The position numbers were made by a program, and so were the translations under genes. Under the pieces are notes generated by a model that was not told the origin of the DNA, did no database searches, and saw only the letters and a list, made by a program, of their open reading frames with translations. From Betaproteobacteria bacterium (GTDB taxonomy: Bacteria > Pseudomonadota > Gammaproteobacteria > Burkholderiales > SG8-41), in contig JACQGO010000170.1 of assembly GCA_016199485.1 (NCBI GenBank), positions 1 through 42,797 on the forward strand: 42,797 nucleotides of DNA, written 5' to 3'. This document shows, in pieces, positions 4,372 to 32,106 of the stretch (its first letter is position 1; every line of letters starts with the position of its first letter).

Positions 4372-4752
4372 ATGCGGAATGATGGAGATGTTGCGCAACT
4401 TCTTCAGCCCAGTTTCAGCCGAATGACGGCCGGAGGCGGCCAGCTCGTGCTGCTCCACGGCTCACGGGGAGCCGGAAGGCCAAGGACTGGCGATTCCGGC
4501 CCGACCCCATCTCCTCTTATGGGCAGAGGCCAGATCGTCTGGCCTGGAGGCTGGGCGTGGCCCAAGCACCGGCCTTGGGGCTCCCCGCAGGGGATGCGGG
4601 TCCAGTTCCTTCAGGATCGGTTGGGCCGGGCGTTGGCCTGGGGGCAGACCAGGGGGGCAGGGGGCAACCCCGCCGGAGGGGTCGGACGCGCCCACGGCAT
4701 CCGCCCCCGACGATACGCCGCCAAAATTTTCCCGATGGGTCAAGGCGGCTAA
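4372..4752 (+). CDS. Hypothetical protein before the small-terminase candidate
   Basis: A 126-codon frame rich in Gly, Pro, Arg and Trp, ending two bases before the ATG at 4755. Two other frames are also open in parts of this stretch and look about equally protein-like (frame 3 around 4480-4600; frame 2 before 4771). The coding frame is therefore uncertain, and a decayed or frameshifted gene is possible. No domain was recognised. Confidence 0.35.
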   Translation: MRNDGDVAQLLQPSFSRMTAGGGQLVLLHGSRGAGRPRTGDSGPTPSPLMGRGQIVWPGGWAWPKHRPWGSPQGMRVQFLQDRLGRALAWGQTRGAGGNPAGGVGRAHGIRPRRYAAKIFPMGQGG

Positions 4753-4754
4753 CG

Positions 4755-5141
4755 ATGGCCAAGCGGAGTAAGGCAGAAGACCGGCTCGCGGTGGACGAAT
4801 TGCTCCGGCAGGCCATGACCGGGGTGATCGAACGGCTGGACCCCACGCGGATCGAACAGGGGCTGATCTGGGCGGTGGAGGGGCTGGTGCGGCAGGCCGA
4901 GCAGTTGGCCGTGACGGACTATAGCCAACTGGCGACGAAGCCGCAGCGGACGAGCCGCATTTCCGCCCACACGGCGAAACTGGCCCTGGCGCTGATGGCC
5001 TTACGGGAATCGATCGCTAAGCAGGCGGGCGGGGGGCGGGCCCCGGACGACTGGCTCAAGCGGCTCACGCCAGAGCAATTCGGGCAGTTGCAGGGCTGGC
5101 TGGCCGAGGCGGCGGCCCGAGACGGGGACCGGGCGGAATGA
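4755..5141 (+). CDS. Candidate terminase small subunit
   Basis: A 128-residue, mainly helical protein starting at ATG 4755. A purine-rich stretch (caagg) lies upstream. Segments such as AEDRLAVDELLRQAMTGVIE and ISAHTAKLALALMALRESIA suggest helical oligomer-forming regions. No classical HTH is obvious. The position two genes before the large terminase is where small terminases usually sit. The assignment rests on position and size only. The stop overlaps the next ATG. Confidence 0.4.
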   Translation: MAKRSKAEDRLAVDELLRQAMTGVIERLDPTRIEQGLIWAVEGLVRQAEQLAVTDYSQLATKPQRTSRISAHTAKLALALMALRESIAKQAGGGRAPDDWLKRLTPEQFGQLQGWLAEAAARDGDRAE

Positions 5142-5362
5142 GCCAGCCCGAGGCGTGCATTAATTGTGGGCACCCGAAAGAACACTCGTACCTCTGGTTT
5201 TGCTCGTGGTGTACCGCGGCCAAGGAAGGGGCATACGCGGCCTGTCGGGCGCTGGGAATGAACAATGTCCGCGATGTGAGACGGGCACGGGATAGCGCGC
5301 TCGCATGGGCGGGGGGCCGTCCATCGGGATACGAGACCTTGTTTGACGGGGAGCCAACATGA
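5138..5362 (+). CDS. Zinc-ribbon miniprotein
   Basis: A 74-residue protein starting in an ATGA overlap. It has two C-x2-C pairs, CINCGHPKEH and FCSWCTAA, spaced as in a small zinc ribbon, then a basic helix (NVRDVRRARDSALAW). Similar proteins precede terminase genes in other phages, and a packaging accessory role is a guess. The stop overlaps the terminase ATPase start. Confidence 0.55.
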   Translation: MSQPEACINCGHPKEHSYLWFCSWCTAAKEGAYAACRALGMNNVRDVRRARDSALAWAGGRPSGYETLFDGEPT

Positions 5363-6090
5363 CTGGGGGGATGCCCGCCCGGCTGGCCGCCGAACGCGCC
5401 CGGCGCGACGCTCACTGGTTCATCTTCGAGTCCAAGCTCCTGCTGACCAAGGACGAGCACGACCCCGCCCGGCCCGTGAAACCGTTCCCGGACGTGCCGT
5501 ATCTGCGGGCGCTCCTGGATTGCCTCCTGCTCGCGGGGCGGCTGGTCGCCGTGGCGGAGGCCCGCTGGGCGCTCGAGGCCGGGATGGCGCCGGCCTGGCT
5601 CGACGCGGTGGCGCGGAGCGGGATCTGCTTCGTCGAGAAGAGCCGGGACGTGATGGCGACCTGGACGGTCTTGGCCTACTGCCACTGGCGGGCGCGGGCG
5701 TATCCCCACCAGCTGATCCTGATCCAGTCCAAGCGCGAGGACGAGGCGGCGTCCTTCGTGTTTATGAAAGACCCGGAGGTCGGGCGCATGAGCTTCATGG
5801 AGGCGCATCTGCCCCCCGCCCTTCGGCAGCTCCGGTTCCCGGTTGCGGGAGCCTATGGGCATCTGTACTATCCCAACGGGTCGCACGTCTGGGCGATTCC
5901 CGAAGGCGGGCACGTCATCCGATCGAACCATCCCTCGGTCGTCTTCGCGGATGAAGCGGCCTTCCAGCCGGAGTTCGGGGCTTCCTACACGGCCGCCCTG
6001 CCGGCGGTGCAGGGCGGGGGCAGTTACATCGCCGTCTCGTCGGCCAATCCGGGGGAGTTTTGCGATCTGGTCGAGGGGGCGGCGGCGTGA
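5359..6090 (+). CDS. terL: Large terminase, ATPase half (split gene)
   Basis: This 243-residue gene encodes only the motor domain of the phage DNA-packaging terminase. A Walker-A-like segment lies at about residues 91-103 (FVEKSRDVMATW), matching the K-S-R form of P-loop seen in phage terminases. Walker B with the catalytic Glu is at 193-201 (VVFADEAAF). Coupling motif III is at 225-232 (AVSSANPG). The frame stops just after LVEG, exactly where contiguous homologues run on toward the nuclease domain. Its TGA overlaps the GTG of a 62-residue ORF, and the nuclease half follows in a third frame. A normal large terminase is 450-600 residues; this half plus 323 residues downstream gives that total. 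The protein docks on the portal and powers DNA entry into the head. Confidence 0.85.
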   Translation: MTGGMPARLAAERARRDAHWFIFESKLLLTKDEHDPARPVKPFPDVPYLRALLDCLLLAGRLVAVAEARWALEAGMAPAWLDAVARSGICFVEKSRDVMATWTVLAYCHWRARAYPHQLILIQSKREDEAASFVFMKDPEVGRMSFMEAHLPPALRQLRFPVAGAYGHLYYPNGSHVWAIPEGGHVIRSNHPSVVFADEAAFQPEFGASYTAALPAVQGGGSYIAVSSANPGEFCDLVEGAAA

Positions 6091-6275
6091 ATCCCGACGT
6101 GCTCCTGGCCGTGGCCCAGATGGCCGGGCACCTCTGGACTGATCGGCCCGTCGTGACCATGACCGGCGACGAGTTCCGCCAATGCCATGGGGAGCATCCC
6201 GTCGAAGGCTACCGGCTCGCCGATGGCCGCGCGGCCGTCGCCTGTCTCACCTGCCACGAGGTGTTTGTCCAGTGA
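6087..6275 (+). CDS. Small zinc-binding-like ORF between terminase halves
   Basis: A 62-residue product from GTG 6087, overlapping the ATPase stop (GTGA) and itself overlapped by the nuclease start (GTGA). The C-terminus has CHGEH and then CLTCHEVF, a C-H...C-x2-C-H set able to hold one zinc ion. No family was recognised. It is translationally sandwiched between the two terminase pieces, so a role as a linker subunit of the packaging motor is possible. An unrelated gene inserted at a domain border is the simpler alternative. Confidence 0.55.
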   Translation: MNPDVLLAVAQMAGHLWTDRPVVTMTGDEFRQCHGEHPVEGYRLADGRAAVACLTCHEVFVQ

Positions 6276-7243
6276 GCCTGCCGGGCCTCTCTCACCGCCT
6301 AGCGGCCGGGTCGATCCCGGTCCTGCGCATCCATTACTCCGCCGATCCCGCCAAGCGCCCGGGCACCGCCGCCGGCGATGCCTGGCTGGATGAGGCCCCG
6401 CGCGGCTACCCGGGCGGGCGGCAGAGTCCCCGGTGGCGGAAGGAACAGGAGATCGACTACGGCGCGATGGGGGGTACCCGCCTCTTCCCGAACTGGGAGG
6501 CCTGGGTCGGCCGGGGGCAGATCGTCATCGACCCCTTCCGCCCGACGGGCTATCGCCTCTATGGGTCCTACGACCACGGCTGGCGGAACCCCGCCGCCTT
6601 TCACGTCCATGGGATCAACGGGGACGGCGCGGTGGTGACGCTCTGGGAGTTCTACGCCGCCCATGTCCCCGTGTCGGCCGTGGCGCAGATCATCCTGGGC
6701 CACGAGGGCGCCCCGGTGATCCTCCCAGACGGGCGGCGGTTCGCACCCAACCCCTTTGCGGGCGAATTGACGTGGATGGTGGCCGATCCCTCGATCTGGG
6801 CGGACGACCAGCCGATGGCCGATGAGACCAACAAATCCATCGCCGACCTCTTCCGCCGCTGCGGGGTCGTTTTCGTGCCCGGCGAGCGCGGGGGGGACAC
6901 CATGGTCGCCGAATGGCTGCACGGCCATTACTGGCAGGACCCCGACCGGCCGCTCTACCGGATCACCACCGACTGCCCGAAGCTCCTCTGGGAACTGGGG
7001 CAGCTCCGCCACCGGGAGTTTTCCCCGCGGGTGGCGCTGGCGCGGGAGCAATCGGAAAAGCTCGTGGACAAGGACGACCACGCCTGGGACGGCTTGAAGA
7101 TGTTCCTCCGGCGCTTCCCGCCGCGCCCCGTGGAGGCCCGCGCGGCGGCCACGCCCGCGACGTTTCTCTGGTGGCGGGCGCAGGCCAAGCGCGCGAAAGA
7201 TGGGCAGCCGGTGCGGACCTTCCGGCGGGAGATGGTCGGCTAA
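6272..7243 (+). CDS. terL: Large terminase, nuclease half (split gene)
   Basis: A 323-residue protein from GTG 6272, chosen because it overlaps the previous stop and because conserved sequence begins right after it (RIHYSADPAKRPGTAAGDAW). The RNase-H-like nuclease acids are visible: Asp in GSYDHG (~101), Asp in MVADPSI (~172) and Asp in KDDHAWDGLK (~268-273). The segment RWRKEQEIDY...LFPNWEAW is typical of the region linking ATPase and nuclease domains. It cuts concatemeric DNA at the start and end of packaging. The separate ATPase gene lies 182 bases upstream in another frame. Longer in-frame starts exist within the small ORF but would read non-conserved sequence. Confidence 0.82.
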   Translation: MSLPGLSHRLAAGSIPVLRIHYSADPAKRPGTAAGDAWLDEAPRGYPGGRQSPRWRKEQEIDYGAMGGTRLFPNWEAWVGRGQIVIDPFRPTGYRLYGSYDHGWRNPAAFHVHGINGDGAVVTLWEFYAAHVPVSAVAQIILGHEGAPVILPDGRRFAPNPFAGELTWMVADPSIWADDQPMADETNKSIADLFRRCGVVFVPGERGGDTMVAEWLHGHYWQDPDRPLYRITTDCPKLLWELGQLRHREFSPRVALAREQSEKLVDKDDHAWDGLKMFLRRFPPRPVEARAAATPATFLWWRAQAKRAKDGQPVRTFRREMVG

Positions 7244-7246
7244 GCC

Positions 7247-9244
7247 GTGCCGCCGCGCAAACGCCGCCCGCCTGAGCCCCCGAAGCCGCCGGAGCCGCCA
7301 GTCGAGCCATCTGCGGGTGATCGCGCGAAGCTCGCACGCCAGGACCTGCTGCGGAAGTGGCAGGCCCGCGTCAGCCGGGCGCGGGAGGTGCGCGCCACCT
7401 GGGAACGGACCTTCCGCATCGAGCAGGCCGAGAAGTATTTCATCGGCCAGCAGCAGGAACAGAAGGAACATATTCTCAACCGCTTCTGGGCCACGCTCCG
7501 TACCTCTCGACCGACCCTCCTCTACGCCGCTCCGAAATTCTTCGTGCGCCCCGCGCCCGGGCGGACGGAACCCGCGACGGAATCGGTGCTCGCCACCGCC
7601 GAAGGGCTTCTCGATGCGATCGCGCTGCGGGACGAGAACCTGAAGCACGCCGGCAAACTCGCCCTCCTGCAAGCCTATTTTCGCCTGGGCGTCCTGAAGG
7701 TGATCTACGATCCGCGTCTGGAGCCGAACCCAAAGAAGGGCGAGCCGATTTACCGCACGACCGAGCGCGGCGAGCCCGTGAAGGATGATCTCGGGGCCAA
7801 TGTTCCGGTCCGCGATCCCATGACGGGCGCGGTCGTCCTCGAGCCTGATGAGGTGCTGGTGGATGAGGTGTACCGCTGGCAGTGGGTGGACGCGGCCGCC
7901 CTGCTCCTGCCCGATGAAGGCCCCGATCCCGAATCCTGGACCTGGATCGGGGAGGAGATCAGCGTGCCCCTGGCCTCGGCCCAGGACGATCCCCGGTTTC
8001 CGGCGGGAATCCGATCCGGCCTCCGGGCCAACGCGACGGCCACGCGACCCCGGGCGAAGTCGGCCGAGCCTCCTGGCGGGATGGGCGGCGAGGCGGAGGA
8101 GATGTTCCGCTATCTGGAATGCTATGACCTTCGGCAGAAGCGATGGGCCGTGTGGGCGGAGGGGCAGATCGAGGAAGATTTTCTGGTCGAAGAGCCGATG
8201 CCGACATGGATCGAGGCCCATCCCTATGCCCTGCTCATCCTGGGCGACCCGATTTTGGGGCCGGAGTCCATCCCCTGGCCGTTTCCCCTGGTGCATCCCT
8301 GGCTCGACCCGCAACGGGAATACAATATCCGGCGCCAGCAGGTCATGGAAGGGGCCAAGCGCGCGGCGCGGAAGATTCTCTACGAGGAGCAGAGTTTCGC
8401 CGATTTCGACGAGGCGTTCAAGGGCTTGCAGAGCCCGAGTGATCTCGAAGCCGTCAAGGTGACGGACATCAACCGCCCGCCTCGGGTGCTGGAGATCCCG
8501 CCGCTGAACATGGATATTCACCGGGATTTGGGCTATCTGGACGCGGACTGGCGGGTCATCACGGGGCAATCTGGGGCGCGGCTCCAGGACCCCGACAAGG
8601 CCACGGCGACCGAATCGGCCTTCATCGAGCGGTCCGCCGGGGTCCGGGAATCGGAAATGCAGGATTCGGTCAACGATTGGCTGGCCACGGCCGGCCGCAA
8701 GATGCTCCAGGCCGTGAAGGAGACCCTGACCTTGGGGCTCTGGATTCGCCTGCGGGCCTTCGACGACAAGGAGTTCATGGCCTACATGGAGCGGGTCTAC
8801 CGGATTCCGAAAGAGGCCCTGGCCGGCTTCCCGGCGCTCAAGCAGGCCTTCCGGGAGCGGTTCGGGGCGGAAAAGTGGCTCCGGGTCCAGCGCGAAGCCC
8901 TCCAGTTCGAGGCCGACGTGCGGGTCTTTCCGGGCTCGACCCGTCCCCGAAATCTCGATTGGGAGCGGCGACAGTGGTTGGAGTTCCTGCAAATCCTTGG
9001 ACAGTACCCGCAGCTGGCCCTCAACCGGGAGCTCCTGCGCGAGACGGCGGCGAAGTTCGAGGGGATTTCCGAGCGCATCATCGACGAGCTGACGGCGACG
9101 GCCGAGCGCATGGTGGAGATCCAGGCGCGGCAGGCCGGGCGCACCCAGGGTGGCGCGCCGGGCGATGGGGCGGGCGCGGGCGGCAGCGCGGCTTCGCCGA
9201 TCGTGTCGGCCCTGCTGTCGGGGGCGACGGGAGGGGCGCGATGA
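7247..9244 (+). CDS. Portal protein
   Basis: A 665-residue protein from GTG 7247, three bases after the terminase stop. Its size, its position directly after terminase and its content fit a podovirus-type portal: a Pro-rich basic N-terminus, a long helical region around residues 40-100 (RFWATLRTSRPTLLYAAP), a stretch of predicted beta structure with acidic loops, and a helical C-terminus rich in Gln and Ala. Twelve copies would form the DNA entry ring that binds terminase. The Gly/Ala-rich tail (GAPGDGAGAGGSAAS) is probably flexible. The large frame on the opposite strand here is a GC-bias shadow. Confidence 0.8.
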   Translation: MPPRKRRPPEPPKPPEPPVEPSAGDRAKLARQDLLRKWQARVSRAREVRATWERTFRIEQAEKYFIGQQQEQKEHILNRFWATLRTSRPTLLYAAPKFFVRPAPGRTEPATESVLATAEGLLDAIALRDENLKHAGKLALLQAYFRLGVLKVIYDPRLEPNPKKGEPIYRTTERGEPVKDDLGANVPVRDPMTGAVVLEPDEVLVDEVYRWQWVDAAALLLPDEGPDPESWTWIGEEISVPLASAQDDPRFPAGIRSGLRANATATRPRAKSAEPPGGMGGEAEEMFRYLECYDLRQKRWAVWAEGQIEEDFLVEEPMPTWIEAHPYALLILGDPILGPESIPWPFPLVHPWLDPQREYNIRRQQVMEGAKRAARKILYEEQSFADFDEAFKGLQSPSDLEAVKVTDINRPPRVLEIPPLNMDIHRDLGYLDADWRVITGQSGARLQDPDKATATESAFIERSAGVRESEMQDSVNDWLATAGRKMLQAVKETLTLGLWIRLRAFDDKEFMAYMERVYRIPKEALAGFPALKQAFRERFGAEKWLRVQREALQFEADVRVFPGSTRPRNLDWERRQWLEFLQILGQYPQLALNRELLRETAAKFEGISERIIDELTATAERMVEIQARQAGRTQGGAPGDGAGAGGSAASPIVSALLSGATGGAR

Positions 9245-31237: not shown

Positions 31238-31480
31238 ATGGACGACGAGCGCGAGCTGGGCGAGCTGAGGGCGAGACTTGAGGGTCTCTGCGCTGCCTTC
31301 GACGACTTCCGCGACCAGACGCGGGCCTGGCAGGACAAAATCAGCGACCAGCTCGAGCGGCGACTGAATCAGCACTCGAGCCGTCTCCGCGCGCTGGAGC
31401 TGTGGCGGGCGGGTCTGGCGGGGGGTCTCGCGCTGTTGGGGATTCTCTGGGCGGCCGTCTGGACTTGGATGAAACGGTGA
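31238..31480 (+). CDS. Coiled coil plus C-terminal membrane helix (XhlA/holin-like)
   Basis: An 80-residue product. Residues ~1-55 are a charged coiled coil (LGELRARLEGLCAAFDDFRDQTRAWQD...). Residues ~57-77 form one transmembrane helix (AGLAGGLALLGILWAAVWTW). This is the shape of XhlA-type proteins that accompany holins, and it lies close upstream of the lytic transglycosylase. The last ten bases, gaaacggtga, recur at 32131 in front of the transglycosylase. Confidence 0.6.
   Translation: MDDERELGELRARLEGLCAAFDDFRDQTRAWQDKISDQLERRLNQHSSRLRALELWRAGLAGGLALLGILWAAVWTWMKR
31471..31480 (+). repeat. 10-bp direct repeat, left of endonuclease VII gene
   Basis: The sequence gaaacggtga, covering the last codons and stop of the membrane protein gene, is identical at 32131-32140. 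The two copies bracket the endonuclease gene. Confidence 0.7.
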
Positions 31481-32106
31481 TGATTTCGACGCCTGACTTT
31501 CCGCTCCTTACTGATCCGGGCACATGGGATGACCTCACGCTGACGGCCGGAACCATCCTGCTTGAAACGGAGGGACGACAGCAGCGTCGTAAAAAAGGAA
31601 TCCAGCAAAGCGACTTTGCGCCTTGCCATCCAGGTAAACGATCGTATGCCCATGATCTCTGTCGATCTTGTTATGTGAAAGAACGGCGGAATCATTGGTC
31701 ATCCGCAGTTGGCATTCAGCGTAATGCCTACGGGCTGGCATGGCGGAAAAAGCAGGGAAAACGCATTGCAGGTCTTCAACGAGAATGGCGCAGGAATCGC
31801 CGTTTATTGGATTTGACGACTGAACGACAGAGAGAACGGAGGTGGGTCGTGCGAAGTCGCTATCATGCGATGCCGGAAGAGATTGAAGCTAAACGGATGT
31901 CCCAGGATGACCGATGCGATATCTGCAAACGGAGCGATCGGGAATTAGTCGTGGATCATTGCCACAAGACTAAGCGATTTCGCGCTCTCTTATGTCGTCC
32001 TTGCAACTTGATGCTCGGCTATGCCTATGAAAACCCGGAGATTCTTGCCCGGGCGATCAGTTATCTCGCTCGATGGACTGAGATCGAATATGGAACGGGT
32101 GCCTAA
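31480..32106 (+). CDS. Recombination endonuclease VII-like homing nuclease
   Basis: A 208-residue product from ATG 31480 (overlapping the previous TGA). The conserved C-terminal core is DDRCDICKRSDRELVVDHCH followed by FRALLCRPCNLMLGYAYENPEIL. These are the C-x2-C, D-H-C-H and L-C-x2-C-N...G motifs of the T4 endonuclease VII family. A second Cys set, LCRSCYVKER, lies near residue 60. Stand-alone members at odd positions behave as mobile genes; the T4 enzyme resolves branched DNA. GC and codon bias are below those of its neighbours, and it is bracketed by a 10-bp repeat, so recent insertion is likely. Confidence 0.8.
   Translation: MISTPDFPLLTDPGTWDDLTLTAGTILLETEGRQQRRKKGIQQSDFAPCHPGKRSYAHDLCRSCYVKERRNHWSSAVGIQRNAYGLAWRKKQGKRIAGLQREWRRNRRLLDLTTERQRERRWVVRSRYHAMPEEIEAKRMSQDDRCDICKRSDRELVVDHCHKTKRFRALLCRPCNLMLGYAYENPEILARAISYLARWTEIEYGTGA

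Follow-up and report, generated by a model that had tools for sequence, protein, structure and literature searches.

Separate genes for the ATPase core and the nuclease of a large terminase in a lineage of uncultured tailed phages

The large terminase (TerL) serves as a marker for nearly all tailed phages, and models of it show a single chain with an ATPase and a nuclease domain that interact via a hinge. In T4 gp17, NsubI is the ATPase engine and NsubII the transmission, hinge-linked to the nuclease/translocation domain; when the protein is cut at the hinge, ATPase and nuclease activities are kept while translocation is abolished (PMC3012670, PMC9958956). We analyzed an entire 42.8-kb contig (42,797 nucleotides [nt]; JACQGO010000170.1) of a metagenome-assembled genome (MAG) from a Betaproteobacteria bacterium, here called the window, in which the parts of such a terminase lie in separate plus-strand genes: an ATPase gene at 5359..6090 and a nuclease gene at 6272..7243, with a small Cys/His open reading frame (ORF) between them. 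The window's family shares its ATPase and RNase H-like nuclease folds, and their order, with the one-chain terminases (T4 gp17, D6E, Sf6, P22, and HK97); unlike those, which are one gene and one chain, it has two genes, with the cut placed inside the ATPase domain after motif III. Very probably this is a natural two-gene large terminase whose two proteins bind each other and rebuild one TerL.

By analogy, the closest precedent for an enzyme that works as two pieces comes from genes-in-pieces enzymes such as NrdA of phage Aeh1 (mobE insertion), which together with phage 25 gene 43A/43B and T4 topoisomerase gene 60 (mobA insertion) illustrates how separate ORFs can yield products that assemble into an active enzyme (PMC2988022). 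The terminase resembles these cases in being an enzyme encoded in separate ORFs, with endonuclease genes at the junction in some loci, its assembly being predicted here. Unlike them, each described in single phages, the TerL split spans very divergent clades, its junction carries many cargo ORFs, and its genes are rearranged in one clade. A second point of comparison is the intron-split terL of ICP1, SIOphi/Bastillevirinae, and Jug phages, which likewise reads as at least two ORFs in the DNA (PMC10448857, PMC11878797, PMC12363816); there splicing restores one protein, whereas overlapping or reversed genes exclude splicing for the present family. We found no paper on a natural two-gene TerL of this kind in the open-access literature; most subscription journals lay outside the scope of that search, and a prior description is possible.

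The two gene products and the position of the cut

The ATPase gene encodes 243 residues in frame 1, from the terminase N terminus to the helix after motif III. The window protein matched the PHROG terminase large subunit (E value, 8.8e-4), and the profile of its family matched T4 gp17 (E value, 1.3e-4). Its motifs are K94-S95-R96 (a deviant Walker A), D198-E199 (Walker B), and S227-S228-A229 (motif III); K94, S95, R96, D198, E199, S228, and A229 are invariant across 24 ATPase sequences, S227 is nearly so, and the window protein is 45 to 66% identical to its aligned relatives. In the Walker A motif the family has a lysine before S-R (KSR), whereas gp17 has SRQLGKT; we take the deviant form to recall that of lambda gpA. 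The nuclease gene (323 residues, GTG start, frame 2) encodes four acidic residues, D101, E126, D172, and D273, all invariant across 29 nuclease sequences. Modelled alone with AlphaFold2 (AF2), the window nuclease protein reached a predicted local distance difference test (pLDDT) score of 81.9, and in Foldseek searches the model matched the D6E large terminase (E value, 3.5e-9) and the P22 TerL nuclease 4dkw (E value, 2.4e-7). The nuclease ORF by itself had no terminase match in Pfam or PHROG, so annotation tools can miss TerL here and such phages may be undercounted.

Thus, an additional-strand catalytic glutamate (ASCE) ATPase core, with a Walker A of the deviant kind, and an RNase H-like nuclease with an acidic metal site are both found; they lie in separate genes in 57 of the 61 members that we compared, the window included, and not on one polypeptide. 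A natural fused homologue, L013, gave an AF2 model with a pLDDT of 86.7 and confident ATPase and nuclease domains, while residues 252 to 255, exactly at the junction, were of low confidence or disordered. The best Protein Data Bank match of this model in Foldseek was T4 gp17 (E value, 4e-14), and 318 columns could be aligned at 4.0 Å with the isolated gp17 ATPase domain. The ratio of nonsynonymous to synonymous substitution rates (dN/dS) was roughly 0.04 to 0.16 for both genes in 9 of 10 sister pairs, the tenth being near-identical and uninformative. As these ratios are far below 1, both TerL genes are under purifying selection and, by this measure, functional. The window genes encode a TerL ATPase core and a TerL nuclease, with ATP-driven DNA packaging and cutting as their predicted activities.

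Profile alignment placed motif III at about gp17 residues 285 to 291 and the end of the ATPase gene at about residue 305. In the nuclease protein, residues 1 to 90 pair with gp17 from about residue 306 onward, including the FRQEHTAAFEGTSGTLI stretch (WRKEQEIDYGAMGGTRLF in the window), and window nuclease residue D101 aligns to the aspartate in the gp17 stretch KYIATLDCS. The gp17 ATPase domain runs to about residue 360 (crystallised chain 385, with a 25-residue offset relative to the full-length chain). On this alignment the cut is about 55 residues before the ATPase/nuclease border, after motif III, which puts the lid region, the hinge, and the last strand of the core on the nuclease gene. 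The original prediction, which had put the split exactly at the domain border, does not hold in this respect.

Arrangement of the two genes across the family

IMG/VR was searched with the proteins and their alignments, loci with both genes were fetched (here given L numbers), and near-copies were removed at 97% identity within a state, leaving a nonredundant set of 61 members including the window. The 57 split members share the same split point, and only 4 of the 61 (L013, L034, L132, and L135) are fused. The split members fall into three arrangements. In 14 the stop and start codons touch, or overlap by as many as 14 nt (as with GCATGATGG in L015, GTGTGATT in L019, and ATGTTAG in L045). In 31, window included, one to several small ORFs occupy a gap of 73 to 925 nt; for one of these, L173, the automatic search found no gap ORF, although one is present in the closely related L174, L179, and L182. 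In the remaining 12, all marine, the nuclease gene comes first and is separated from the ATPase gene by 1.2 to 1.8 kb. This reversed clade consists of L094 (1021-4467) and L096 to L127 (12 nonredundant loci), with an ORF of about 190 residues of unknown family and a small terminase gene between the two TerL genes. One ATPase gene and one nuclease gene were detected per reversed locus (these being loci, not complete genomes); in L094 both TerL pieces match TerL PHROGs (E values, 3.9e-11 and 1.4e-12), and the gene just 5' of the ATPase gene is a small terminase (PHROG E value, 5.7e-13).

These arrangements bear on whether the 181 nt that separate the ATPase stop codon from the nuclease start codon in the window could be a short intron, or the parts be joined in some other way, to yield a single ordinary TerL as in the phages with intron-split terL. 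Such genes are known, and the introns of the Jug phages, averaging about 206 nt, are of similar length. We nevertheless regard this explanation as very improbable: touching or overlapping genes leave nothing to splice, the order of the genes is reversed in a whole clade, and in the window an ORF takes up the whole insert and shares four bases with each neighbor. Rfam searches for introns found none in 13 sources at the gathering threshold and none in the window insert and ten relatives at a permissive threshold, where the only hit was a chance-level riboswitch fragment at 5993-6017 (E value, 2.5). Programmed frameshifting was likewise rejected; a slippery heptamer lies near only 1 of 45 ATPase-nuclease junctions (CCCTTTG in L045), and all three frame relations occur among the insert-bearing loci, with none shared. 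The overlapping and reversed genes therefore exclude a spliced or frameshifted single product for the family, and for the window itself such a product would be excluded by extension from the family and by the missing intron signal. On these sequence comparisons, two or more polypeptides must make up the TerL of this family.

A gene could also be broken by errors in sequencing or assembly, or by decay of a terminase in a dead prophage, and the window is a single contig from a MAG of moderate quality (82% complete, 3.4% contaminated). The same cut nevertheless recurs in dozens of contigs that are independent and come from different samples, both genes have a dN/dS far under 1 in comparisons among relatives, and all catalytic residues are kept, which together make an artefact or a relic exceedingly improbable. 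The original prediction that the split is real and not a single indel was thus borne out. Fused relatives, which it had suggested looking for, do exist; the middle ORF is never in frame in them, and their junction is instead a linker of 9 to 11 residues.

Trees were built for 31 and for 61 members, the latter kept unrooted. Fused forms fall into two groups, each nested among split members, with supports of 96/94 and 95/71 on the 31-member tree and of 99 and 98 on the 61-member tree. Because the fused forms are nested in split clades, fusion looks secondary; two changes on the tree explain them, and by parsimony the split looks ancestral. Rooting with cultivated TerLs failed, as the ATPase motifs did not align.

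How the split arose is a separate question. A homing endonuclease may have inserted into a fused terL and later have been lost or replaced, an origin that is compatible with a two-gene terminase and for which Aeh1 nrdA is a precedent (PMC2988022). HNH_3 domains lie exactly in the junctions of L030 (E value, 1e-9) and L084 (E value, 9e-15), and L043 has a GIY-YIG-like ORF there; the window and most relatives have no endonuclease between the TerL pieces. The endonuclease-bearing loci are, however, nested in already split clades, so that these copies probably postdate it. No trace of the founding event can be seen, and simple fission by a frameshift with overlap is equally possible. We consider an endonuclease origin possible but doubtful. 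As a separate observation, the HNH_3 endonucleases of L030 (3384-3818) and L084 (4696-5181) are homologous and 43% identical yet sit in junctions of non-sister lineages, which suggests, at the level of sequence similarity, that the endonuclease has spread between the two.

No relatives were found in 149 bacterial genomes near the MAG, and a narrow pattern search of GTDB contigs returned none apart from the window itself. Among cultivated phages the window nuclease had no match at all, and the ATPase only weakly matched one-gene TerLs of gut phages, one of which holds an intein-like insert; the marine proteins, used as queries, reached one-gene TerLs of other kinds at 23 to 29% identity. The gut-phage TerL with the insert, L054 (3782-6295; MT835790.1), is distantly related to the window ATPase; its insert of about 300 residues lies exactly at motif III, starts with CITGDTQ, ends with HN, and is near the place where the window family is split. 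Judged by the loci recovered, the split TerL belongs to a widespread lineage of uncultured tailed phages.

A proposed two-part motor

We propose that the ATP-binding core, with the deviant Walker A, Walker B, and motif III, comes from protein 1, and that the part of an ordinary TerL that follows motif III comes from protein 2: the last strand of the core, the lid ("transmission") region, the hinge, and the RNase H-like nuclease. Both genes would be translated in sequence off one mRNA through stop/start overlaps, and the two proteins would bind each other, re-form one TerL, and assemble at the portal, as TerL does in other tailed phages. In this arrangement the ATPase core is cut off from the lid, and the lid, hinge, and nuclease stay covalently joined; small ORF insertions are tolerated at the junction, the Cys/His ORF of the window being one such cargo. 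In the reversed clade, where the genes are not adjacent, assembly would have to be between separately made chains. Physical assembly, activity, stoichiometry, and translational coupling of the two proteins are parts of this proposal and are to be read as predictions. Going further, we rather favor the view that this is an old, stable lineage with an obligately two-polypeptide motor, whose ATPase core meets the lid-hinge-nuclease arm in trans, and with a gene order that is free to change.

Several points weigh against the proposal. A cut at the gp17 hinge abolishes translocation, so function cannot be taken for granted in a split motor, even one with its natural cut elsewhere. Its position is taken from a distant alignment to gp17, at about 15 to 24% identity. 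The family tree has no firm root, since TerLs of cultivated phages aligned too poorly to act as an outgroup, and its deep branches are long and weakly supported. The close relatives are all metagenomic contigs, none of them cultivated, and it is by inference that the two proteins are taken to bind each other and to package DNA. If the motor is indeed an obligately two-polypeptide one, a covalent link between core and nuclease would not be required for translocation, provided that the lid and hinge stay on the nuclease. A natural cut between the ATPase core and the lid makes directly testable which covalent links the motor needs.

Small genes at the junction and the surrounding locus

The middle ORF of the window (6087..6275; 62 residues, GTG start, frame 3) overlaps the ATPase gene at 6087..6090 and the nuclease gene at 6272..6275, in each case by a GTGA stop/start, and GAGGGG ahead of the first overlap could act as a ribosome-binding site; the coordinates, frames, and overlaps originally described were all reproduced. 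The ORF had a weak Pfam match to Paired_CXXCH_1 (E value, 0.0023), under the cutoff, and no relatives in IMG/VR or INPHARED. Its base composition by codon position resembles that of its neighbors and is coding-like, with a third-position GC of 0.84, and it is therefore probably a real gene.

The original prediction of a packaging motor with at least two, perhaps three, subunits stands for the two polypeptides and fails for the zinc ORF as the third. A functional third subunit, bridging ATPase and nuclease, could be read from the GTGA coupling on both flanks and from the Cys/His motifs of some other inserts (CxxC, CxxH, or CH in 17 of 50 predicted insert ORFs). Against this, the 62-residue ORF has no homologue, the slot is empty in the 14 relatives with touching or overlapping genes, and elsewhere it mostly holds unrelated ORFs, among them the endonucleases, a sigma-70 region-4-like (helix-turn-helix) protein in L081, products with apparent transmembrane stretches, judged by eye, in L025 and L027, and, in further relatives, other Cys-rich ORFs. 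Turnover is visible even between close relatives: L003 and L012 are 97% identical over the compared ATPase stretch and 89% identical in the nuclease, yet their inserts differ (a 53- versus a 119-residue ORF), and the sister phages L026/L027 and L040/L041 also differ in insert. We rejected the third-subunit role on this turnover and regard it as quite unlikely. Because sister phages differ in insert and slot contents are mostly unrelated, the zinc ORF is best read, from these sequences, as lineage-specific cargo of a two-part terminase and not as a conserved or needed motor subunit. With its turnover of small genes and homing endonucleases, this junction in an essential operon is an instructive example of how insertions can be placed between essential genes that are coupled.

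Two further junctions deserve mention. The junction ORF of L073 (4741-5202) appears by eye to be of the phospholipase A2 type (GCTG...CLEHDIAY) and has no Pfam match. In L010/L044, with a gap of 378 nt, the automatic ORF choice was a 132-residue TTG-started frame; the true arrangement is probably a 61-residue ATG ORF plus a 67-residue family common to L005, L006, and L008.

The TerL genes of the window lie next to a candidate small terminase gene, assigned by position only, and a portal gene that adjoins on the 3' side. The small terminase candidate is a 131-residue plus-strand ORF (4746..5141) upstream of the ATPase gene; Pfam and PHROG searches placed it in no family, and weak relatives (about 30% identity) lie 5' of the ATPase gene in L002, L003, L004/L012, and L021. 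Between it and the ATPase gene is a 74-residue Cys-rich ORF (5138..5362, plus strand) with ATGA overlaps with both neighbors and a weak zinc-ribbon-like Pfam match to DUF7575 (E value, 0.0013), under the cutoff; this is a second cargo-type slot in the window, and L003 and L008 hold other Cys-rich ORFs there. The portal protein gene (7247..9244, plus strand; 665 residues) directly follows the nuclease gene and matches the PHROG portal family (E value, 1e-7) and, under the cutoff, Pfam P22_portal (E value, 2.4e-4). A recombination endonuclease VII domain (Pfam E value, 4.8e-17) lies at 31402-32106, in the right part of the phage contig.
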